In this document: positions 2,281-47,046 of the stretch, piece by piece
How positions within the stretch are numbered: the stretch's first letter is position 1
Layout of the letters: the number at the start of each line of letters is the position of its first letter
Origin: a virus
Length of the DNA: 47,347 nt
IMG/VR virus record: IMGVR_UViG_3300032157_000018
Span: 1-47,347 of that record
Reading direction: 5' to 3' (one strand)
The notes under the pieces: model-generated
What the model saw: the letters and a program-made list of their open reading frames with translations, nothing else
The model's database searches: none
What the model was told of the DNA's origin: nothing
Translations under genes and position numbers: made by a program

Positions 2281-2490
2281 TCATGCGGCGGTCACTTCCG
2301 GCGATTTCGGTTGCCAGCCGCGCGGTATCTCGGGGTCAGCGACAAGCTGGCCTTTGGTGATCTCTTCGATCTTCAGTTGGTGAACGCCAGGAATCGTCTT
2401 CCATCCCCAAACCGTCGATTGAGAGAGCCCCAATGCACGAGCTAGTGCCGACTCAGATTCGAAGTGCGCAACCGCAGATGCTTTGTCCAT
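2281..2490 (-). CDS. Cro-like repressor
   Basis: A 69-residue protein with a helix-turn-helix near its N terminus (ALARALGLSQSTVWGWK, about residues 15-31), as in Cro/YdaS-type regulators. It is the first gene of the leftward early operon and diverges from the CI-like repressor, the standard lambda-like arrangement. The start is the ATG at 2488-2490, only about one base from the predicted transcription start of its promoter, so its mRNA may be leaderless. Confidence 0.85.
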   Translation of the reverse strand: MDKASAVAHFESESALARALGLSQSTVWGWKTIPGVHQLKIEEITKGQLVADPEIPRGWQPKSPEVTAA

Positions 2491-2546
2491 ACCGCGAAGA
2501 ATACCGGCATTCCGGTTTTTCGCGCAAGGGGCATTCCGGTAGACTG
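2491..2546 (-). promoter_or_regulatory. PR-like promoter with two repressor operators
   Basis: On the minus strand TTGCGC (complement of 2522-2527 region) and TATTCT (complement of about 2498-2503) form a promoter with an 18-bp spacer that drives cro. Two operator-like sites are present: the perfect dyad ACCGGcattCCGGT at 2503-2516 and a degenerate copy AGGGGcattCCGGT at 2527-2540, centres 24 bp apart. A weak divergent -10 (TAGACT, 2540-2545) could serve the CI-like gene. The same motif pair and spacing recur at 3310-3347. Confidence 0.7.
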
Positions 2547-2564
2547 CCCCACTATCCTTCGGGC

Positions 2565-2963
2565 ATGAGCATCGGCGACCGACTCAGGAAAGAGCGCAAG
2601 GCCCAGGGGTACACCCAGACCACCCTGGCCGAGGCCGCGGGCGTTTCCCAGACTACGATCAACGATCTAGAGAACGGGGATACCCAGCGCCCTCGCGGCG
2701 ACACCCTAATGGCGCTGGCGCGCGTATTGCAGATCGCTCCTAGCTGGCTTATGACCGGCAAAGGAGAGAAAAAAATGATCTACGCCGCGACGCAACATCA
2801 GGAGACCATGCTAGTACTGATGAAGCGCATGCCCTTGGCCGCACAAGAGCAATTACTTGCGATTGCCCGAACCTTCGACGATAGTCCGCCCGAGCCGCCG
2901 CCCGATCTTCTGTCGGGCAACGTGACAGTTCCGCGACTACCGAGGCCCCCGAAACCGAGTTAG
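2565..2963 (+). CDS. CI-type prophage repressor, short form
   Basis: A 132-residue DNA-binding protein. Residues 3-60 form an XRE-type helix-turn-helix domain (LRKERKAQGYTQTTLAEAAG, then SQTTINDLENG). The C-terminal half lacks an S24 peptidase (no LexA-like Ser/Lys dyad visible), so unlike lambda CI it should not undergo RecA-stimulated self-cleavage; the tail is proline-rich. The start MSIGDRL is chosen because the upstream extension of the frame crosses the operators. It diverges from cro and is followed at once by a hairpin terminator. It is the likely ligand of the four operator sites at 2.5 and 3.3 kb. Confidence 0.88.
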   Translation: MSIGDRLRKERKAQGYTQTTLAEAAGVSQTTINDLENGDTQRPRGDTLMALARVLQIAPSWLMTGKGEKKMIYAATQHQETMLVLMKRMPLAAQEQLLAIARTFDDSPPEPPPDLLSGNVTVPRLPRPPKPS

Positions 2964-11426: not shown

Positions 11427-11674
11427 TGACCCTGCTCCTGACCGACGACGAGCTGGAGACGCTGACCGGGTACAAGCAGGCAGCGCGGCAGATCGTCGAG
11501 CTCAAGCATCTGCGCATCCCGCATCGCCTACGTCGGGATGGCACAATCGTCGTTTTCAGGGAGGACTGCCGTGCGACCGAGGAAGAAAGACCGGCATCTC
11601 CCCGCGTGCGTGTACCTAAAGCACGGGGCTTACTGGTACGTACACAAGGGGAAGTGGACGAGGCTCGGGGATGA
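11426..11674 (+). CDS. DUF4224-like protein, possible recombination directionality partner
   Basis: The first 48 residues (LLTDDELETLTGYKQAARQI, then LRIPHRLRRDGTIVVF) match the DUF4224 pattern, a small domain usually found just upstream of phage integrases. The remaining 34 residues overlap the integrase start by 104 bases in another frame. Position suggests a partner of the integrase such as an excisionase, but this has not been shown from the sequence. Confidence 0.68.
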   Translation: MTLLLTDDELETLTGYKQAARQIVELKHLRIPHRLRRDGTIVVFREDCRATEEERPASPRVRVPKARGLLVRTQGEVDEARG

Positions 11675-12569
11675 CCTCCAGAAGGCCCTCGCCGTCTACG
11701 CCAAACAGTTTGAGGTCAGGTCTGTAGCAGGCACCCTCCCCGCCCTGATAGATGAAGCCTTCCCCTACATCACCGCCACGGTCTCAGAAGGAACGAGGAA
11801 GCAGTACCGGTCGGCAGCAAACCACCTGAAGGAGGCTTTCAAGGAGTTCGACCCCCAGAACCTTCAGAGCGCCAACGTCCGACACCTCCGCAGGATGCTC
11901 TCGAAGATGCCCAACACAGCTAACCGGTGCATCAGTGTCCTCCGGATGATCTATGCCTGGGCCCGGGAGGAAGAGATCGTCTTTCATGACCCCTGTGAGG
12001 GAATCGACCGACTCAAGGAAGGCAAACGTGACCGCTACATCACCGACGAGGAATGGGACGCTCTAAGGGGCGCTGCCTCTCCACTGGTGCGCAACATCCT
12101 TGACCTACTGTACTTCACCGCGCAACGGGTTGGTGACGTACTCAGCATCAAGCTCACCCAGATCACCGATCAAGGCATCGTCTTCAAGCAGAAGAAGACC
12201 GGAGCGCGACTAACGGTATCCTGGTGCCCGGAGCTGGAGGCCGTCGTAGCCTCCGCCAAGGAAGGGAACATCCGCGCGATGACCCTCCTGCACAACCGGG
12301 GTAAGAGAATCGCCTACAGCACCTTCCACGACGCGTGGCTGGCCCTCTGTCAGGCCACCGGGGTAGAAGACGCACACATCCACGACATCCGCGCCAAGAG
12401 CCTTACAGATGCCAAGAGGCAGGGCCATGACCCCACTCCGCTAGCAGGCCACAAGAACGCGCAGATGACCGAGCGCTACATCCGAAGGCGGGAAGACGTG
12501 CTCGTAATGGGGCCGAGTATTAGACGGGAATTAGACAGAGACAGCAAAAACAAGAAGATGGGAGACTGA
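11571..12569 (+). CDS. int: Tyrosine recombinase / integrase
   Basis: A 332-residue phage integrase that catalyses site-specific insertion and excision. GTG at 11571 is chosen because GGGAGG lies nine bases upstream and the N terminus RPRKKDRHLPACVYLKHGAY fits phage integrase starts. Arm-binding and core-binding regions occupy residues 1-150. The catalytic domain shows Arg186 (QRVGD), Lys209 (QKKTG), His271 and Arg274 (HDIR), His294 (GHKN) and the nucleophile Tyr303 (ERYIRR). It is the last gene of the rightward early operon; putative arm sites and a tRNA-Leu-like gene follow. Confidence 0.93.
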   Translation: MRPRKKDRHLPACVYLKHGAYWYVHKGKWTRLGDDLQKALAVYAKQFEVRSVAGTLPALIDEAFPYITATVSEGTRKQYRSAANHLKEAFKEFDPQNLQSANVRHLRRMLSKMPNTANRCISVLRMIYAWAREEEIVFHDPCEGIDRLKEGKRDRYITDEEWDALRGAASPLVRNILDLLYFTAQRVGDVLSIKLTQITDQGIVFKQKKTGARLTVSWCPELEAVVASAKEGNIRAMTLLHNRGKRIAYSTFHDAWLALCQATGVEDAHIHDIRAKSLTDAKRQGHDPTPLAGHKNAQMTERYIRRREDVLVMGPSIRRELDRDSKNKKMGD

Positions 12570-12713: not shown

Positions 12714-12934
12714 TGAGCGCCACAATTGCGCTGTGGATAATTGCCGGCTGCGCGACTGCCCTAGCGATATGGGCATGGTTTCATCCGCTGAAAAAGCGGT
12801 ATCCTGTGGTGACCTGGAATGAGGCCGGCCAGATTGTTTGCGTGACTCTTCAGGATGACGAGGGAAAGATCGTGCGCGTGCTAGCGGAGTCGGCGAATCC
12901 GCCAATAACCCCGCGAGCCAAGGTGGTGGAATAG
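12713..12934 (+). CDS. Single-pass membrane protein, 73 aa
   Basis: GTG 12713 follows AGGGGAG. An N-terminal hydrophobic helix (IALWIIAGCATALAIWAWF) is followed by a small soluble domain (YPVVTWNEAGQIVCVTLQ). The stop TAG lies inside the D-loop of the tRNA-Leu-like sequence, so its 3' end overlaps the tRNA by 18 bases. Function unknown. Confidence 0.55.
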   Translation: MSATIALWIIAGCATALAIWAWFHPLKKRYPVVTWNEAGQIVCVTLQDDEGKIVRVLAESANPPITPRAKVVE

Positions 12935-12993
12935 GTAGACACAGCGGACTTAAAATCCGTCCATTGTCGGTTCGAGTCCGGCCCTTGGCACCA
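12917..12993 (+). tRNA. tRNA-Leu(UAA)-like, with short variable loop
   Basis: A full cloverleaf: acceptor GCCAAGG/CCTTGGC, D stem GTG/CAC, anticodon stem GCGGA/TCCGT with loop CTTAAAA (anticodon UAA), T arm GTCGG-TTCGAGT-CCGGC, discriminator A73 and encoded CCA. The variable region is only five bases (CCATT) instead of the long arm of leucine tRNAs. It may be a decayed or altered phage tRNA, or the tRNA identity block of attP next to the integrase. Confidence 0.82.
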
Positions 12994-28671: not shown

Positions 28672-29919
28672 TTACAGCGCGAAGTTCACGTCAGCGATCT
28701 TGCCGCTGGCTGCCGGGTTCTTGGCGATGAGGGTCGCCTCCACCAGCAGTTGCCTACGCATCGAGTCACCCGTCTTTGCGAGATCGCTCGAACGGAAGCC
28801 GCGCAGGTAACCCACAGCCCAGTACTCCATGTCCAGGGCCAGGACCGTGCGGGTACGCATGAAGCGGTTGGGCACGATACGGTGTTCGCCGAAGTCGGAG
28901 ATGTAGAGATCCACACCACCGATCACCTGGGCCTGTTTTCCAGACGGAACGTCACGGTAACGGGTCGCGATACCAGCGAACGAGGTGGAAATCTTCTGCT
29001 TGCCAGCAGCGCCCACCATGATCGTCGACGGATCACCACCCGCGTCCCAGAGTTCTGCGATCACAGACTTGAGGGCCTGTTCCGTCAGCGTTCCCGGGGT
29101 CGCGGCGTCAGTCGGAGCAGCAACCGTACCCGAGACGTAGCCCGAGGAAGTCGCCGCAGTACCGGTCTGTTGCAGGGAGGTGTAACCACGCCGTTGACCA
29201 GAAGCGGTGCGGCTGTTGAGCCACGACTCCACGGAGGCCATCAGGGCAGCAGACCCGGCGCCACCGGAAGTGGACGACTGGTTCTGCACCAGGGCGTATT
29301 CCAGGTCGCGCTTCAGTTCACGCGAACGCTTGGCCATCTGGTAGGCCATTTCCGACTTGCGACCCGCCTTGTCGATTTCCTCTTGAGTGCCGGAGACCTG
29401 GGCTACCTTGTCAAGGATCTGACAGTAGTTGCGCAGGCGAACGGTCGGAACGGCGGTGTTGGTCGAGGCGTCGTCGCCTTGGACATTGGCGTTTGCACCA
29501 ACGTCGTCCAGTGCGTCAGTCTGCCATTCGGTGTAGGTCGCGGTGACGTTTTGCTTGCCCGCGGCTGACATGAAGGGGGTTTCCGCCCCTGTTACCGCAC
29601 AGGCTCTTTATCCCGTGCTTCTGCATGTCCCCATGCAGTTCGGACTATATCTTCACCCCTGAGGGGGCTGGGCACTCGTGGGCGCTGCATCGCTGATCTA
29701 GCGGTATGCGCCTAGTCTCTGAACCTTCCGCACATCCCTGCGCGGCTTGGCTGCTGATTGCCTGTTCTAGGCTTCCCAGCAATTCACCCAGTTGCAACTG
29801 ATCCTTTCGAATCAGCGGACCGAAACTCCAGTCGGCGAGATGTCGTAGATGATGTCGCTCAGATCTTCCCGATTGCCGATGCTCTGGAAGGTCTGAAAAG
29901 TACCAGTTGGGACTGCCAT
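28672..29919 (-). CDS. Major capsid protein (DUF5309 type), split by a group I intron
   Basis: Exon 1 is 29830-29919 (30 codons, AVPTGTFQTFQSIGNREDL ... DISPT) and exon 2 is 28672-29583, starting GAA ACC CCC TTC ATG (ETPFMSAAGKQNV). The splice product, 333 residues, reads as one continuous DUF5309 capsid sequence, including EWQTDAL, GDDAST and VSGTQEEIDKAGRKSEMAYQ. Unspliced, exon 1 ends at a TGA eleven bases past the splice site region. GGAG precedes the ATG by seven bases; the scaffold gene ends immediately upstream. The splice sites are inferred from protein continuity and from the usual U at the exon end and G at the intron end. Confidence 0.88.
29584..29829 (-). ncRNA. Group I intron in the capsid gene, 246 nt, no ORF
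   Basis: On the minus strand the core elements of a self-splicing group I intron are visible: a P-like stretch GAATTGCTGGGAAGCC, then CAATCAGCAGCCAAGCC (complement of 29744-29760), GGTTCAGAGACTAGGCG (complement of 29709-29725) and GAAGATATAGTCCGAAC (complement of 29638-29654). GACTA of the third pairs with TAGTC of the last to form P7. The last exon base is T and the last intron base is G, as required. It has no homing endonuclease gene. Confidence 0.88.
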
Positions 29920-30864
29920 TTATCGCTCCATTTGAAGGAAAACATTGCGTGCGGCGTCCATAGAGCCGCTCTTTTTGAGAGCCTGACGGGCCTCTCGCGC
30001 TTTTTGTGTTTCCGTATCCGTTGGAGCAGTTGAGCCTGGCTTTAAGACCTTGGGCACCGCTACCAGCTTCTTTTCCACGTTGGGCTTGGCTGCCTGGAGA
30101 GCGCGATATTTCTTCGCGTCCAGGAGCACTTTGATAGCTCTGGGATCGGTCACTTGGTTCATTTCTTCCCGAGTGAATCCGTAGTCCTTCACACCGGTAT
30201 CCAGGACACCGCTATAGAGTTCGTCGGACCAGTCGGGCACGTCACGCTTCAAGACCTCGACCGCGTCTGCGGCCTGCTTCTGAAGCGTTTGCTGCATCTC
30301 CGCGTTGCGTTGGTTGTTAGCCTTCTCAACCTCTGCATTTGCGGATTGGAGAACCTGAAACACGTTCTCCGCCTTCGCTTTCAACTCGACATATCTGGCT
30401 GGATCGTCCTTGGCCAGTTCCGCCCAGTTGACATTGCCCAGCTCAGGAGCGGCCATCTTCACGACCGCTTCCTGGAATACCCGGATGTTGTGGATGTACT
30501 TGTCAGTCTCGGCATCCACCGTTTTCTTGACCTCGGTGCGGATGGCTTCACGCTCCCGAGCGACTTCAGCGGTCTTGCGCTGATAGTCGGACTGCATCAT
30601 GTAACCCTTCTGGAGTTCGGCGAGGGAAACCTTCTTCGCTTCCCTACCTCCCCCTTCTACCGCGACCTCCATGTCGAACAGAGGAGCATCGGGGTCCAGC
30701 TCGATGACGTTCTCGTCTGTTTCCTTGGCCTCTACAGGCGCTTCCTCTTTCGCCTCGGGAGCAGCTTCTTCCTGGGCATCTACCTTTTCTTCGGGAGGCG
30801 CTTCGGGTTCTTCGAGGGCTGCGAAACGATCTTCGATGCTTTTCTCTGCTACGACAGCGTCCAT
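29920..30864 (-). CDS. Scaffolding protein, 314 aa
   Basis: A very acidic N-terminal third (EEPEAPPEEKVDAQEEAAPE), a helical middle with DYQRKTAEVAREREAIRTEV and a basic C-terminal helix (RQALKKSGSMDAARNVFLQM). Charge pattern, length and location directly before the major capsid gene are those of phage scaffolds, whose C-terminal helix binds the capsid. Stop codon abuts the capsid start. Confidence 0.82.
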   Translation of the reverse strand: MDAVVAEKSIEDRFAALEEPEAPPEEKVDAQEEAAPEAKEEAPVEAKETDENVIELDPDAPLFDMEVAVEGGGREAKKVSLAELQKGYMMQSDYQRKTAEVAREREAIRTEVKKTVDAETDKYIHNIRVFQEAVVKMAAPELGNVNWAELAKDDPARYVELKAKAENVFQVLQSANAEVEKANNQRNAEMQQTLQKQAADAVEVLKRDVPDWSDELYSGVLDTGVKDYGFTREEMNQVTDPRAIKVLLDAKKYRALQAAKPNVEKKLVAVPKVLKPGSTAPTDTETQKAREARQALKKSGSMDAARNVFLQMER

Positions 30865-31113
30865 TTACACCTGCGGTTTCGGGATGGCGGCCATCTTTCC
30901 GCTATCCATGATTGATCGGAGTATTTCTTCGAACTTGTGCGTCCCCACGTAGATGGCCCAGAGGTGCTCGCGCATCTCGGTGTCCTTCAAGGGCGTTAGT
31001 TGCCATTGGTCGATGAGGGCCTGTTTCAAGACCGCCATCGATTCCTTGAAGAGTGGGTTGTTCGCAATGCGCGAGGCTTCTTCGCCTCGTCGAATCTCGT
31101 CTTCTGGTGTCAC
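30865..31113 (-). CDS. Small helical protein upstream of scaffold, 82 aa
   Basis: Helical and charged (SMAVLKQALIDQWQLTPLKD, THKFEEILRSIMDSGKMA). Short proteins of this kind lie between portal and scaffold genes in related phages. Its stop abuts the scaffold start and its start overlaps the previous gene by four bases. Function unknown. Confidence 0.7.
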   Translation of the reverse strand: MTPEDEIRRGEEASRIANNPLFKESMAVLKQALIDQWQLTPLKDTEMREHLWAIYVGTHKFEEILRSIMDSGKMAAIPKPQV

Positions 31114-32549
31114 AACATCCTCTCCAGCGCTCTCAGGATCAGATCGCGCTCCCAGTTGATGTACCAGTGGGCATGGGCTTCTAGCTCCATGTCTTCTGTA
31201 ACTTCCTCAAACACCTGCTTGATGACGGCTTTCGGGAGGTCCTCGATGTCGTACTTGACGACCTTCGTAAGGACGACCTTCGCAGCCCTCGTCGATTTGG
31301 TCTTGAGGACCTCGACGGCCTTCTCGACGACTTCCTGGTCCTCGGCCATCTCATCGAGGAGTCGGATGACTTCTCGTCGAGTGGCGTAGACGCTCTCCCC
31401 GTTGGGGAGGTAGTAGCGGCGCTTACGGGAACCGGCAGGAGCAGGGCCGGAAGCCGTTTCAATAACCGGCGCATCAGAGCCAAACTGAACGTCTACATGG
31501 CAAGAGGAATCAAAGCTCGCCTCGGCAATTGAGGCGCCTTCCGCCAGGAAATCGACCGTACTGGTCGAATCCAGTGCCCCGTCGTCAGTGGGCTGCGTTG
31601 CATCGTCACCATCGAACGAGACAGTGACTTCACTGGCGCTCGATAGCGCGGCTTCTGCAATCGACTCGCCAACGGCTGAAAAGGCAACGGCGTTGGTAAC
31701 ACTTAGAGCACCGTCGTGTCTCGATTCGCCGGCAAACGTCGCCGTTACTTCGTTGGCGACACTAAGAGCGCCACCAGAGACCGCTGACCCTTGCGAGATT
31801 CGCCTGCGGGTAGGCGCGAATATCTGCCACGGGTTGTCGTGGAGAGCGATGTGCTCTTCCGCCGTCAACCTGCGGTTCCAGCACACGGTCAGGTAGATGT
31901 TGCCCTGCCATGTGGTAGACCCGCCGTTGCTGGCGCCTACGCCGAAGATACTATTAGCCCCGTCCTGTAGGGCCACATCACTACCGTTCGGACCGAACTT
32001 CCAGCTATCGGAGCGGTAACTGCCGTCGATGTAGAAGTTCGGCTGATTGAGTGCCGTACTTCCAGCATCGACAGAAGCAACGAAGTCTCGACCGGTGACG
32101 ATGTCACCAGCAGTGGTGCCCCGGGTCCCGTTGTTTGTCCCGCCGACGTTGCGCCACAACGCCAAAGCCCCGTCCGACCTGACGAAGAACGTCATCGGGA
32201 CGGTGTTTCCTACCGCCGCGTCCCACTTCGCTACGAGACCAGACTGCGACGACAGACTCGTTGAGCGCGCAACACTCAGGACCGAGTAGCCGTTGGCGAA
32301 TATCAGGCTGTCGGCATTGGCGTAGTTTCTGTAGCCCGAGCTACTGAATACCTGGGCTTTCCCTGAAGCGCCAACACCGTGCAGCGTAACACTCGACCCC
32401 GAGGTCGTCGGGAAGACCTTGTTGACCGGGTCGTATCCGGAGGTTGCCCCATTGGATACGAAGAAAATCCCTCTAGTAAGGGGATTCCCTACATCAAGGC
32501 CAACATGGTCCTGCGGCTGCCGTGTACGTGACACCGGCAACAGGAGCAT
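31110..32549 (-). CDS. LamG/concanavalin A-like virion protein, 479 aa
   Basis: Residues 20-245 form a LamG-like jelly roll (GIFFVSNGATSGYDPVNK, FYIDGSYRSDSWKFGPNG, WQGNIYLTVCWNRRLTAEEH, then NPWQIF, a hallmark of such phage and marine proteins). Residues 250-360 hold three or four short repeats (LSVANEVTATFAGES, LSSASEVTVSFDGD, LDSTSTVDFLAEG), like thin beta spacers. The C-terminal helix bundle is charged. It is probably a capsid decoration or glycan-binding protein; an unusual place for a fibre. Confidence 0.65.
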   Translation of the reverse strand: MLLLPVSRTRQPQDHVGLDVGNPLTRGIFFVSNGATSGYDPVNKVFPTTSGSSVTLHGVGASGKAQVFSSSGYRNYANADSLIFANGYSVLSVARSTSLSSQSGLVAKWDAAVGNTVPMTFFVRSDGALALWRNVGGTNNGTRGTTAGDIVTGRDFVASVDAGSTALNQPNFYIDGSYRSDSWKFGPNGSDVALQDGANSIFGVGASNGGSTTWQGNIYLTVCWNRRLTAEEHIALHDNPWQIFAPTRRRISQGSAVSGGALSVANEVTATFAGESRHDGALSVTNAVAFSAVGESIAEAALSSASEVTVSFDGDDATQPTDDGALDSTSTVDFLAEGASIAEASFDSSCHVDVQFGSDAPVIETASGPAPAGSRKRRYYLPNGESVYATRREVIRLLDEMAEDQEVVEKAVEVLKTKSTRAAKVVLTKVVKYDIEDLPKAVIKQVFEEVTEDMELEAHAHWYINWERDLILRALERML

Positions 32550-33541: not shown

Positions 33542-33972
33542 CAGTCGAAGGTGATCGTCGAGGAGGTCGTGATACGAGGGGTGACCCCATTGCTCACGAC
33601 AATGTTCGGGGTGACAGTTCCGATGGCCAGGATCTTCCCTGTCGAGGACGAAGCAGTTCCGACAACAGCGTGGGTCACCGTTCCGCCACTACCGCCGGAA
33701 GAGATCGTGAAGTCAACGTTTGCCGTCGGGGAGACCGAGTTCCCGGTAACTGTCCATCCACCGCTCGAACGAGCTACCGCCACCCTTGAATAGCCGGTGT
33801 AACTGATTTCGTTCGAGGTCTGGTTCCCGCCCTCGCCAGGGTCTGAGGTATGCAGGGACAGATACAGATCAGAGAGCGGACCCGAGGCGGCGTTGTCCGC
33901 GATATTGGCGATATTCGTCCCGTTGAAAATAAGCTTCGCGAGATCGTTCTCGAATGTGTTTCCTAGACTCAC
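33541..33972 (-). CDS. Tail/decoration protein, beta-rich, 143 aa
   Basis: NDLAKLIFNGTNIANIAD then LYLSLHTSDPGEGGNQTSNE and YTGYSRVAVARSSGG match a widely spread small phage structural family (often called tail fibre or hypothetical). The rest is Gly/Ser/Thr strand-rich. It is ATGA-coupled to the portal gene. Confidence 0.75.
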   Translation of the reverse strand: MSLGNTFENDLAKLIFNGTNIANIADNAASGPLSDLYLSLHTSDPGEGGNQTSNEISYTGYSRVAVARSSGGWTVTGNSVSPTANVDFTISSGGSGGTVTHAVVGTASSSTGKILAIGTVTPNIVVSNGVTPRITTSSTITFD

Positions 33973-36221
33973 TGGATCGTCACCTTTCCGCCTGATTTAC
34001 TGAATGTCTTGGGTCGCTTCAGTTCCGCCACGAGTTCAGCGATGAGCTTGGACATGCCGTCCTCCTTCTGCTCTTTCTTCTCGTTTTCCTGTTTCTGGGC
34101 GGACTCGCGCATGCTCATTTCGTGCTCTCGCTGTTTGTGCTCCATGTCCTGCTTTTGAGCGGCGAGTTCGTTGTTCTGCTTCACTAGATCCAGGACCTTC
34201 TGCTCTAGCTCGAAGTAGCGCTTCTTCTGCTCGTCCTCGGCCTTCTGCATCTCCTGGATGGCCTTGAACTGCGCCATGGCCTGGTCGTGCTCTTGTTTTT
34301 GCCGCTCGTCCTTCACCTTCAAGAGAGTTTCGGTAGCGCGCAACTCTTGATCCTTGGCCGACTGTTCGAGCGTCTTGGCCTGGATAATAGTGTCAGCGGT
34401 CTGCTTTTCTCGGGCGAGTTCCTGAGCTTCAGCTTTCTGTTGAGCCGAGGTCTCCGCCTTGAACCTCTTGATCTCGACTTCAGGATCCACCTGAGGTTGA
34501 GGTGGCGGAAGTTTTGACGGGTCAGTGAAGTACCGATCCGCCTTCTTAGGATTAACAACGCGAGCAAAGTCAATCGCCGCCTCGTAGACGTTCTGCTCTG
34601 TCACAACCCGTCCGCCCATCCCGGCCATCGCAATCTCTTTCTGGATGTTCATCAGGGCTTGAGCGGAGGCCATCAATTGATCTTGATTCCCCGTTCCCAG
34701 ACCCACCGTAACGGTCATGTCGAACTTGTTCGACCACTCTCTGGGGTCGACAGCGATCCAGTTGTTGTTCAGGCGCATCACTTGAGGCTTGGTGTGATGC
34801 TTACTCGCGAGGTGAAGGATTCCCCAGGCGATGTCCTTCACAACCGTGTCGGCAAGAATCCGGGCGATCAGCTCGATCCTCTGTTGAGACGCCGACATGA
34901 TGTTCTGGATGCCAGTCGCCGTTTTGTTCAGGCTGTCAGCATCCAATCCCTGGTTGTAGCGGGTTACACCCGTTCTGTTCTCAAGAGCGGCGTCCACGTA
35001 CTCCAACAATTGGAACGCCGGGGCTCCCAACGGAGGGGCCTGGAGCGGTTTAACCGCATCGAAGGTCTTGACTCTGACAACCCCGCCCGGACGCACCGTC
35101 AACAGGTCGTCGATGTTCACCATCCCATCCAACGCCATCATTCGGCTGTTGTTGGTCAGGTACATGTTGTCCAGGACCTGCCGTGCAACCGTGCTTTTCA
35201 ACAGTTGCAGGTCCATCACGAGGTCCGAAAGACTCATGCCGTACAACTTATGAGGCATGATGATCGGGGTTCCCGTTGCCAGAGGAATCCGGTCGATCTC
35301 CTCGTTGTCGAGGAGCGTCTTTCCTACTTTCGTGACCTTGCGGAGTTCGGAAATGCCGTCTCCATCGAAATCAACCCGGATGTAAGCCTCGACGATCCAG
35401 ACTTCACGGGTGGCATCGTCCCTCTCATCCCGCATGTAGAGGCCGTCTTCGTCGAAGTTCCGTCTTTCAATTGCTTCTAGGTCAAAGTCCCCGTCATCAT
35501 CGTTTCCTTTGATGTCGTCGACCGGATAACCCATTTGTTTCAGGTCGGAGAGGGACTTCTTGCAACGATGAGCTACAAAACGGGCCTTCTGGAGGTCGTG
35601 TGAGGCGCCTCGATTGACGAAGATCTCCTCTGGAGGGCAGGCGTCGACACAGATCTTTCCACCGGTCTTCAGGATCTCGAACTTGACCGTTCCGGTTTCC
35701 TGGTCGTACTCCTTCACCTCGACTTCGAACCCCATATTCTGGTAGTTCGTCACCAGCATGATCAATTCATCCGGTGAAAGTCCGGCGTAGGTCTCGACTT
35801 TCCTGTCCTCGTAGTCCTCCCAATAGGACTTGGAGAAACAGTTCTTGACCATCAGGGCGTCTTTGAACAGGCAATACAGCAGGGAAAACCCGTTGTTCTG
35901 CCGCATCAACACATAGTTGACGTAGTCGGTTGCTTGCTGGGCGGCCTGTTCGTCTTCAGGTCCCTGGGGTTCAAATCGGACGATCTCATCTGACGCGGTG
36001 AAGATCCGCATCAGGGACGGCATGATGCCTTCTACAGTGTTTGCAACGTCGTGGGAGACGTATGTGGATCTCCCTTCGATTTCGTTACCGAACGGCTGAC
36101 CGTAGTAGTACTGGATCGATTTACGTCTTTGTTCCGAGAGTTCTCCGGAGAAATAGCCGACGGATTGGTGTAGCTCTTTGTCGACGAGAGTTACTAACTC
36201 GTCATCCGTCATTCTTGCCAC
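33969..36221 (-). CDS. Portal protein, 750 aa
   Basis: Large P22/SU10-style portal. QRRKSIQYYYGQPFGNEIEG (about 27-46), SHDVANTVEGIMPSLMRIF (about 55-73), KNCFSKSYWED and GVTRYNQGLDADSLNKTATG are typical blocks. The last 150 residues are a very long charged coiled coil (Gln/Glu/Lys-rich), the expected portal barrel. It forms the DNA entry ring and docks the terminase, whose gene is two positions upstream. Confidence 0.9.
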   Translation of the reverse strand: MARMTDDELVTLVDKELHQSVGYFSGELSEQRRKSIQYYYGQPFGNEIEGRSTYVSHDVANTVEGIMPSLMRIFTASDEIVRFEPQGPEDEQAAQQATDYVNYVLMRQNNGFSLLYCLFKDALMVKNCFSKSYWEDYEDRKVETYAGLSPDELIMLVTNYQNMGFEVEVKEYDQETGTVKFEILKTGGKICVDACPPEEIFVNRGASHDLQKARFVAHRCKKSLSDLKQMGYPVDDIKGNDDDGDFDLEAIERRNFDEDGLYMRDERDDATREVWIVEAYIRVDFDGDGISELRKVTKVGKTLLDNEEIDRIPLATGTPIIMPHKLYGMSLSDLVMDLQLLKSTVARQVLDNMYLTNNSRMMALDGMVNIDDLLTVRPGGVVRVKTFDAVKPLQAPPLGAPAFQLLEYVDAALENRTGVTRYNQGLDADSLNKTATGIQNIMSASQQRIELIARILADTVVKDIAWGILHLASKHHTKPQVMRLNNNWIAVDPREWSNKFDMTVTVGLGTGNQDQLMASAQALMNIQKEIAMAGMGGRVVTEQNVYEAAIDFARVVNPKKADRYFTDPSKLPPPQPQVDPEVEIKRFKAETSAQQKAEAQELAREKQTADTIIQAKTLEQSAKDQELRATETLLKVKDERQKQEHDQAMAQFKAIQEMQKAEDEQKKRYFELEQKVLDLVKQNNELAAQKQDMEHKQREHEMSMRESAQKQENEKKEQKEDGMSKLIAELVAELKRPKTFSKSGGKVTIQ

Positions 36222-37799: not shown

Positions 37800-38867
37800 C
37801 TAAAAGTTAGCCGAGCGAGCCATTTCAAGCATCCAGTCGTTGTATCCGGGCCAAATGGCGAACGTCGTCCCGACTGTCGTAGCTGCTGGATTACACACGT
37901 TCCATATCAATGAAAGCGGCACGGACGCCATACCGTTGATCATGCGTCTGAACACCTGTTTTTGGTCGCTTCCGCCACTGGAATAACTATTCGAAACACC
38001 GAATTCCCCAACAACGAGAATCTTCCCGTGTTCCTTCGCCATGTTGTTCCACGCCGTCATCGCCCCACCGAAACCTTGCGCGTCTTGTCCCCAATGATTC
38101 CCCGGGGATGAATTCGCATCCGGATAGGTATGCACGCAGATCGCGTTGAAAGCGACGTGCTCCCTTAATGCTTTGGGCATGTACCCAGGCCAACCGGCCG
38201 CCGCAGGAACCCTGCCGACCGTATTCCCCGAGATCCGCAGCCGGTTCGATGTGTCTCCAGAGCAGGCGTCAACAAACGCCTGAGCGACGATCAAATACCG
38301 CGCTTCGTTGAGGGAATCATCCGGCGCCGAATACGACCCCAACGTGTCGTTTGGAACGCTGACAGCAGGAAGGTCAATGGTTGCGCCGTCTATGTAAGAG
38401 TTCCATTCGTTACCCAGCTCCCAAGCGCCACAAGCCTCGTGGTTCTTGTAAGTGGAAACGATGTCGCTTACATAGTCAGCGAAAGCCGTCCTTGTGGCAC
38501 TTCCAGAGTCCGTCCAGTCCACGATGTTCTCCGCATTCCTGTCGGAAATGCTCGCCCACCGCGGCGAAAAAGATAGAACAATGGAAATATCGTTCTCTGC
38601 TGCTTCATCTAGAAGCTCCAGCAATCTGGAGTGGTACGTGCTCGGGGAGTTGTAATAAGTGTCGTACTCATTCGGCCACGGCCCGTTGATGATGGACCGG
38701 CACACTTTGATTCCATACCCCTTAAGGTAAGAAAACGCTGTTCGGTAAACCCTGGGGGAATCTCCATACCCATTGAGATACCGATAGAACAGGTCGTAGC
38801 CGTTAACTCCTACGTGCCGGAAAGCCCTTCCGTGACGGCAAAAAACGCCGCCCTCATTACTGAGCAT
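37800..38867 (-). CDS. GH5-like glycoside hydrolase (clan GH-A), 355 aa
   Basis: A TIM-barrel endoglycanase pattern: NGYDLFYRYLNG start, GAWELGNEWN with the acid/base Glu154 after Asn, a conserved VHTYPD around His246, and VVGEFGVSN with nucleophile Glu288. No signal peptide. It follows the Gly-rich adhesin gene in the late operon, so it is likely a virion-bound or co-expressed enzyme that cuts a beta-glycan such as host capsule or exopolysaccharide. Confidence 0.78.
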   Translation of the reverse strand: MLSNEGGVFCRHGRAFRHVGVNGYDLFYRYLNGYGDSPRVYRTAFSYLKGYGIKVCRSIINGPWPNEYDTYYNSPSTYHSRLLELLDEAAENDISIVLSFSPRWASISDRNAENIVDWTDSGSATRTAFADYVSDIVSTYKNHEACGAWELGNEWNSYIDGATIDLPAVSVPNDTLGSYSAPDDSLNEARYLIVAQAFVDACSGDTSNRLRISGNTVGRVPAAAGWPGYMPKALREHVAFNAICVHTYPDANSSPGNHWGQDAQGFGGAMTAWNNMAKEHGKILVVGEFGVSNSYSSGGSDQKQVFRRMINGMASVPLSLIWNVCNPAATTVGTTFAIWPGYNDWMLEMARSANF

Positions 38868-45958: not shown

Positions 45959-46035
45959 CGATACCTCACCAGTACCCACCCGATGACACCGAATGCCAAA
46001 GCCATCAGGAGCCAGAATTGCCATTCAACGGACAT
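45955..46035 (-). CDS. Single-pass membrane peptide, 26 aa
   Basis: ATG 46035: SVEWQFWLLMALAFGVIGWV, then LVRYR. One hydrophobic helix with a basic end. GTGA coupling to the next gene and overlap of 11 bases with the one before support it. Confidence 0.5.
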   Translation of the reverse strand: MSVEWQFWLLMALAFGVIGWVLVRYR

Positions 46036-46282
46036 GGAGCCTCCGGATTGCCATAGCCGTTCGAACGCAGGGCTTGCAGGAGTACGAGTACATCTGCCGG
46101 CCGTTGTGAACGCCTTCGGTGTAGAACTCGCTGGCGGGCTTCTCACGGCCACAGGTGGAGCATTTCCGCGGTGGGTCGTCCCATCGCCTGTTTTGCTCGC
46201 GCAGTTCCTCGCGATTCATGCGCCGCATCGGTTTGCTCGCGGCCAGGATTTCGGTCGCCGTGATGAGTCGGGATGGGGTCAT
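46025..46282 (-). CDS. Zinc-binding HNH-like accessory protein, 85 aa
   Basis: ATG 46282 in ATGA overlap with the replication gene. CSTCGREKPASEFYTEG and SYSCKPCVRTAMAIRRL give a four-Cys zinc site (C-x2-C, C-x2-C) in a basic context. Similar proteins appear in phage replication regions. Function unknown. Confidence 0.68.
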   Translation of the reverse strand: MTPSRLITATEILAASKPMRRMNREELREQNRRWDDPPRKCSTCGREKPASEFYTEGVHNGRQMYSYSCKPCVRTAMAIRRLHVR

Positions 46283-47046
46283 GGCACGAAACCGCCTACT
46301 CGCGCTTGCCCATGCCGAAACGACACGTCGGTCTGATCCAGCTCGTCCTCCCAACCCTTCGCCCGAAGCCAGGTTGCCGGGTGGGGGATGAACTGCCCAT
46401 CGTCCTTTCGCCACTGAGCCGAGTTCATGGCCCGCTGCAAACCGGCAAGGATCTCGGTTCGCAACTGCTCGTTCGGCTTCAATGCCCTCCACGCCTTCAG
46501 GGCTTCGCCCTTCGAGCGCCTCTTGGGGTAGGCAGACCAAAACTCCGAAAACCCGTCCGCCAAGCCAACGTCAGTTGGCGCACGTGGTGTTGCTTTACTT
46601 CTCTTCTCTTCACTTCTCTTCGGGGAACATTTCGGACCGGATGGTTTCGTTTGGTTTACCAAACTGAGTCCATCTTTGTTGAATGCATTGAACTTTTTTA
46701 TGGCGTCTTCATCTCCAACCAGCACGGTATCTGGCGGTTTTGGATGATTGAGTTTGTTGCGATCTAGGCGTTGCCGAAACTTGGGAATAAAGGCGTAACG
46801 CCCCAAGTCCACTTCGTAAGTACGGATTAGATCCGTATCGACCAATTCCAATAGCAGTTTGGCGATGCGCTCGCTGGACGGCATGTCAAAGAAAGCCCTG
46901 CGACGCAGGAAAGTGGTTCCGACGTTCACGCACCCGAAGTCATCCGCTAACAACATGAGATGGACAAACAATAGTCGGGCGGCATCGGAAAGTTGCGCGT
47001 ACTTGTCCGAGTCCAAGAGTCCGTCACGGATCATTCTGGTCGGCAT
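46279..47046 (-). CDS. O-like replication initiation protein, 255 aa
   Basis: Residues 1-90 form a winged-helix-like N-terminal domain (DGLLDSDKYAQLSDAARLLF, ELVDTDLIRTYEV, FIPKFRQRLDR). A charged, flexible linker with SPKRSEEKRSKATPR follows; the C-terminal domain has FWSAYPKRRSKGEALKAWRA and FIPHPATWLRAKGWED, as in phage replisome-organiser proteins that load helicase. A pyrimidine-rich tract at 46596-46621 on the plus strand lies in the linker region, the usual place of lambda-type origins, but no clear iterons were seen. Confidence 0.78.
   Translation of the reverse strand: MPTRMIRDGLLDSDKYAQLSDAARLLFVHLMLLADDFGCVNVGTTFLRRRAFFDMPSSERIAKLLLELVDTDLIRTYEVDLGRYAFIPKFRQRLDRNKLNHPKPPDTVLVGDEDAIKKFNAFNKDGLSLVNQTKPSGPKCSPKRSEEKRSKATPRAPTDVGLADGFSEFWSAYPKRRSKGEALKAWRALKPNEQLRTEILAGLQRAMNSAQWRKDDGQFIPHPATWLRAKGWEDELDQTDVSFRHGQARVGGFVP

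Follow-up and report, generated by a model that had tools for sequence, protein, structure and literature searches.

The window analysed here is the whole of the 47,347-nt virus record IMGVR_UViG_3300032157_000018, and the stretch of interest lies in its structural region, where a major capsid gene on the minus strand is found in two pieces next to the following features:

33969 to 36221, minus strand: SU10-type portal protein (Pfam SU10_portal, 1.8e-207)
29920 to 30864, minus strand: upstream neighbour in the same operon, 314 aa; Pfam gives no confident family, and its position is typical of a scaffolding protein, which it may be
29830 to 29919, minus strand: exon 1 of the major capsid gene, codons 1-30, MAVPTG...DISPT
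29584 to 29829, minus strand: group I intron, 246 nt, no endonuclease ORF (Rfam match, splice search, covariation)
28672 to 29583, minus strand: exon 2 of the major capsid gene, ETPFMS... to the stop; its first five bases, GAAAC, are the P10 partner

The capsid gene starts at 29919, its protein opening with MAVPTGTFQTF, and in the unspliced message the frame runs into a stop after five intron codons past codon 30. With 29584-29829 removed, a continuous frame of 333 aa is obtained, and the spliced protein matches Pfam SU10_MCP at 8.3e-93 over residues 4-329 in a single stretch. A preliminary description of this DNA, made from its letters alone, had proposed just such a restored DUF5309 capsid protein and had placed the intron at these very coordinates, after codon 30, a position borne out by both the Rfam match and an independent splice-pair search. 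It had also anticipated that a simple gene caller would report a truncated protein, and indeed the mechanical ORF list holds the capsid only as a 299-aa ORF (28672-29571). Its statement that the intron lacks an endonuclease ORF is upheld: the longest stop-free stretch inside the 246 nt is 60 codons, and no ORF with an endonuclease domain is present.

Elsewhere in the record, a tyrosine integrase (11538-12569, plus strand), followed closely by a tRNA-Leu(TAA) (12917-12993), and a cro/CI-like regulator (2433-2963, plus strand) indicate that the phage is probably temperate. The structural region also encodes a glycosyl hydrolase family 5-like protein (37800-38867, minus strand) and a weakly laminin-G-like protein (31110-32549, minus strand).

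The covariance search that had been suggested as a check on the intron, and whose failure would have counted against it, returned a clear match: RF00028 aligns to 29621-29841 on the minus strand over the full length of the model, with 74.7 bits against a cut-off of 50 (E 2.9e-17), and is the only Rfam family matching within 29400-30000. To place the ends, all pairs of U-ending and G-ending junctions were scored first with an HMM of the capsid proteins of relatives and then for their P1/P10 pairing; this search was performed on the contig L002, letter-identical to the window over 7,245 nt, and its best pair is the 246-nt intron given above. The ends obey the U-end and G-end rules, as had been claimed, with U at 29830 preceding the 5' splice site and G at 29584 ending the intron, and the guide sequence pairs with both exons (P1 and P10), leaving a U.G pair at the 5' splice site. 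An alternative 3' splice site 3 nt upstream also ends in G and would add one Ala; it breaks the P10 register, and the HMM score likewise speaks against it. The RNA elements, all on the strand of the gene, are these:

29830 to 29836, minus strand: P1 exon strand GCCGACT, last 7 nt of exon 1, U.G at the splice site
29815 to 29826, minus strand: internal guide sequence GUUUC|GGUCCGC (read from the sequence; P1/P10 counts)
29798 to 29815, minus strand: P2 hairpin CUGAUUC-GAAA-GGAUCAG (fold)
29751 to 29782, minus strand: P4-P5 domain, P4 UUGCUG/CAGCAG and P5 GCCU/AGGC, with the P and Q elements (Rfam, covariation)
29724 to 29750, minus strand: P6 and P6a (91-100% of cells paired, 40 introns)
29713 to 29717, minus strand: P7 5' strand GACUA, the R element (100% of cells paired)
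29681 to 29712, minus strand: P7.1 and P7.2 hairpins, between P7 and P3 (63.5% and 70.6% of cells paired)
29668 to 29672, minus strand: P3 3' strand CCCAG, partner CUGGG at 29787-29791 (89.7% of cells paired)
29656 to 29666, minus strand: P8 hairpin CCCC-UCA-GGGG (covariation)
29643 to 29647, minus strand: P7 3' strand UAGUC, in the S element AAGAUAUAGUCC (Rfam, covariation)
29621 to 29638, minus strand: P9 hairpin CUGCAUG-GGGA-CAUGCAG (Rfam, fold)
29597 to 29618, minus strand: P9.1 hairpin GCACGGG-AUAAAGAG-CCUGUGC (fold, same-site comparison)

Numbering the intron from 1 to 246, the P1 guide strand GGUCCGC occupies bases 9-15 (29815-29821) and pairs with exon 1 GCCGACU with one internal C.C mismatch, while the P10 guide strand GUUUC occupies bases 4-8 (29822-29826) and pairs with exon 2 GAAAC. 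The P9 and P9.1 hairpins each have 7 bp without a mismatch, including one G.U in P9.1, whose loop AUAAAGAG is conserved in many introns at the same site. The core motifs quoted in the preliminary description are all present, but taken strictly, AATCAGCAGCCAAGC is the Q element, and the P element is AATTGCTGGGAAGCC.

The fold energy of the intron RNA beats that of 199 of 200 shuffles (z -2.78). When 40 related intron cores were aligned and the window's structure was counted on them, 78.6% of cells were paired as against 61.2% in shuffles, changes on both sides were seen in 45 of the 55 pairs, and the covariation score reached 0.402 compared with 0.147 shuffled, a value equalled by none of 500 shuffles. 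Slid structures paired at most 42.2% of cells; reading the structure from the window itself favours the unslid version, but the difference is far larger than such a bias. All five P3 pairs changed on both sides among the 40 introns, P4 was paired in 88.8% of cells, and P7, P6 and P4 are canonical. Both P7.1 and P7.2 form in the window's intron and covary among relatives; these inserts and the core motifs we take to be those of phage subgroup IA (IA2-like) introns, an assignment made from features rather than from a subgroup-specific model.

Relatives of the capsid gene were collected by scanning IMG/VR with the spliced protein, which gave L002 at 99% identity and a further 80 capsid loci at 38-65%. 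A search of the whole records of 80 capsid relatives with RF00028 found matches in four only (L002, L013, L031 and L047), always with the intron towards the 5' end of the capsid gene; the remaining relatives had no match and nearly all read through. In this first sample of relatives, an uninterrupted capsid gene is thus the rule and the intron the exception. L002 was rejected as independent evidence of conservation, being 100% identical to the window over 7,245 nt. Since the covariance match above the cut-off, the P1-P10 structure with its covariation, the restored capsid protein and the uninterrupted relatives all agree, 29584-29829 is confirmed as a group I intron interrupting an SU10-type (DUF5309) major capsid gene.

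The window's junction is occupied in other phages as well. L013 and L031 carry introns at exactly this point (ISPT/ETPF, or ISPV/ETPF in L031), and their HNH ORFs are 274 and 278 aa long (Pfam HNH 5.2e-8 and 1.1e-6). Two DNA pattern scans, on the 3' end and on the P1 region, added L086, L088, L089, L090, L092, L267 and L268, and a genome scan added Zymomonas mobilis (L094) and a Zymomonas MAG (L095). Long intact HNH-type ORFs are found at this junction in L013, L031, L086, L088, L089 and L092, which make five lineages as L088 and L092 are near-identical; altogether, group I introns of at least seven other capsid lineages sit at the same codon junction, and in five of these lineages the HNH ORF is intact. 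The introns of L090 and L268 have no HNH ORF. In the related phages L086 and L090, whose matching stretches are 91-98% identical in DNA, comparison of the 917-nt intron with an HNH ORF in the former to the 276-nt intron in the latter reveals two clean deletions that remove the HNH gene, with remnant HNH codons kept in L090. Another pair, L267 and L268, is identical at 245 of 246 residues of capsid exon 2 (91% in DNA), and its introns of 476 and 275 nt share exactly their first 14 and last 69 bases while the cores differ: that of L268 has no ORF and a P4 resembling the window's, while L267 keeps an HNH ORF with half of it deleted. In L031, exon GGUU and guide GACC replace GACU and GGUC, so that at this same site a change in one strand of P1 is compensated in the other.

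Some of these loci deserve a remark of their own. The two Zymomonas introns, 412 and 380 nt long, presumably lie in prophages, and the host is culturable. The capsid gene of L031 contains a second ORF-less, intron-like insert before GDREDL (L031:1770-1992), similar to the window's intron over the 3' 94 nt (76%) and unreported by the RF00028 search of the L031 record. A further group I intron (78.9 bits) lies near the 3' end of the capsid gene of L268 (L268:2078-2299).

The ends and the core of the window's intron point to different relatives. Its first 14 bases agree at 13 of 14 positions with same-site L013, L088 and L089 and at all 14 with L268, and its tail, from the S element on, matches L013, L088, L089 and L094 at 51-52 of 58-60 aligned bases, compared with 43-49 of 57-64 for introns inserted elsewhere (L047, L098, L124, L140 and L194), P1 and P10 being partly fixed by the exons. 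Among the introns compared, the core is closest to that of L047 (77.6% over 174 nt), an intron located eight codons upstream in another phage. Because the core is nearer to introns of other sites than to those with an HNH gene at its own junction, an L013-like intron that merely lost its ORF is not a sufficient source, and core exchange or independent arrival would have to be added. The simplest reading is that recombination may have kept the site-defining ends and changed the core, a pattern that is clearer in L267 and L268. More generally, the introns of this site could be modular, with the P1/P10 guide and the P9 tail staying in place while the catalytic core is replaced by recombination, and the window's intron could be such a mosaic; we put this forward tentatively, as a reading whose chances fall somewhat short of even. 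If it is true, an endonuclease-free intron would keep its address and renew its ribozyme. That the intron was simply inherited along with the capsid gene is disfavoured by the comparison of L013 with L047, where the exon 2 proteins are 86% identical, the intron sites differ and the HNH proteins are only 33% identical, and by that of L216-L244.

In the latter set, the capsid proteins of L216-L220, L221 and L236-L244 are 92-100% identical, and yet the intron lies near position 27 in the first group, is missing in the second and lies near position 111 in the third. Such near-identical capsids with differing intron sites imply that intron gain and loss have been recent and repeated, and the set amounts to a natural polymorphism for the presence of the intron. 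The scan for the core motif of the window's intron yields a sample, and as it picks introns, it gives no estimate of intron frequency; among its matches listed, many loci sit in SU10-type capsid genes, where most catalogued introns measure 208-320 nt and have no long ORF, and single capsid genes hold up to four introns (four in L125, three in L172, two in L155 and L194). All scans combined, introns map to at least 17 positions along the capsid model, and 19 of 20 loci checked with Rfam score above the cut-off, L267 falling below. The SU10-type capsid gene family is an intron hotspot. Its most crowded example is L125:2253-4074, where a single capsid gene is interrupted by four group I introns, none with an ORF and all above the Rfam cut-off.

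As to how such an intron would work, established group I chemistry, with guanosine attack on a P1-held site and P10-guided ligation, would fit the structure. The capsid pre-mRNA would fold so that the guide sequence holds exon 1 (P1, with U.G) and exon 2 (P10, GUUUC/GAAAC); a guanosine bound in P7 would attack after U 29830, and the freed exon 1 would then attack after the terminal G 29584, giving a joined mRNA and the 333-aa capsid protein. Most likely, the intron goes back to a homing intron that carried an HNH gene at this site, or recombined with one, and has since lost the endonuclease. It may persist because it does no harm, and perhaps also because it hitch-hikes on an endonuclease provided by another phage. 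HNH, HNH_3, GIY-YIG and LAGLIDADG_3 domains were not found in the 47-kb record, which may be incomplete, and the intron would presumably be immobile alone or reliant on an endonuclease acting in trans. Such mobilisation is plausible because same-site relatives carry intact HNH ORFs, and a co-infecting phage with one of these introns could in principle mobilise that of the window; collaborative homing of ORF-less introns has been described (PMC3984707, PMC10448857). A small protein with a weak C-terminal match to endonuclease VII/HNH-like domains is encoded at 46025-46540 on the minus strand, beside replication genes and far from the intron. A tblastn match of the L013 HNH protein at 1342-1683 (E 0.004) was dropped, as that frame encodes a primase-helicase.

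We are highly confident in this explanation as a whole, namely that of a capsid-gene group I intron which is spliced and likely derives from a same-site HNH intron; we infer that it is spliced in the cell, that it comes from an HNH form and that it could be mobilised in trans. The alternatives differ in what they make of the same facts. The intron could be a relic that is dead for splicing, in which case the phage would be defective or would make a truncated capsid from the internal ATG at 29571. That ATG with its 299-aa ORF does exist, the intron has no ORF and P1 has its C.C mismatch; on the other hand, all core elements are intact, the model is matched over its whole length, P7, P6 and P4 are canonical, both capsid exons are intact and would not last if the protein were not made, and the truncated product would be without the conserved N-terminal region of SU10_MCP. 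We consider this very improbable. An assembly error, or an insertion other than an intron (an intein, a programmed translational bypass or a transposon scar), is less probable still and has hardly any chance of being right. The identical sequence occurs in only one other contig, L002, possibly from a related sample, but group I introns occupy the same junction in unrelated contigs and in two Zymomonas genome records, and the covariance match and covariation are specific for group I introns. An intein is ruled out by the in-frame stops.

A different proposition concerns why the intron is there: it might be kept for regulating capsid production through splicing, as a switch sensing GTP, growth state or translation. 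Among the matches listed, most catalogued capsid-gene introns are without an intact endonuclease ORF and are found again and again at many sites, and regulatory roles of phage introns have been raised in general (PMC11878797). However, nearly all capsid genes in the first sample of relatives are intron-less, and near-identical capsid genes have no intron, an intron at one site or an intron at another, which fits neutral gain and loss better; we regard a regulatory role as unlikely, if less so than the two possibilities above.

The interrupted capsid gene has practical consequences, as automatic annotation would give a truncated capsid here and for other interrupted SU10-type capsid genes in metagenomes, and such calls distort marker-gene surveys and phage classification. 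Beyond annotation, the same-site series (HNH gene intact, half deleted or gone, core exchanged, site empty) represents stages of an intron life cycle, and natural pairs with nearly identical capsids make mobility loss, intron cost and core exchange testable.

Among the known systems close to this intron are the td, nrdB and nrdD (IA2) introns of phage T4, which we take to share the P7.1/P7.2 inserts, the AAUUGCUGG...CAAUCAGCAGCCAAGC core and the GGUUCAGAGACUA and AAGAUAUAGUCC motifs, a likeness of features rather than of aligned sequences. The window's intron differs from them in host gene, insertion site and the absence of an ORF. Within the open-access literature, we found no paper on introns in SU10 or DUF5309 capsid genes. 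Two candidate precedents for a capsid location were rejected: the OM43 phage paper (PMC10580990) deals with a DNA polymerase gene, and the match in Klebsiella phage KPN234 is in an RNA polymerase gene. The latter (L269:844-1608) separates two pieces that the annotation treats as RNA polymerase genes in their own right, and it probably represents a group I intron missed in annotation.

Virion structural genes with group I-like introns are known from the mycobacteriophages LittleE, in the major capsid gene, and BAKA, in a tail gene, where splicing was shown by RT-PCR and, for the capsid, also by protein sequencing (PMC3706429). The 265-bp BAKA intron likewise has no endonuclease gene, whereas the LittleE intron is 819 bp long, carries an endonuclease ORF, interrupts an HK97-like capsid gene and is not firmly assigned to a type (PMC3706429); that of the window, in contrast, interrupts an SU10/DUF5309 capsid gene, has 246 nt and no ORF, and its structure is resolved from P1 to P10. 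The same paper also cites Tuc2009 for a phage capsid-gene intron (PMC3706429). In metagenomic crAss-like phages of the Delta and Zeta groups, group I introns occur in MCP genes, several per gene; these belong to another capsid lineage and were detected through endonuclease domains, which the window's intron does not have (PMC7886860). The introns involved in collaborative homing in T3-like phages and in cyanophage psbA are also ORF-less group I introns in essential phage genes (PMC3984707, PMC10448857), but the window's record is without the four endonuclease families tested, and an endonuclease is seen only in same-site introns of other phages. Overall, capsid-gene group I introns and ORF-less phage introns have been published before, and what is new is this member of the group together with the series of introns that share its site.
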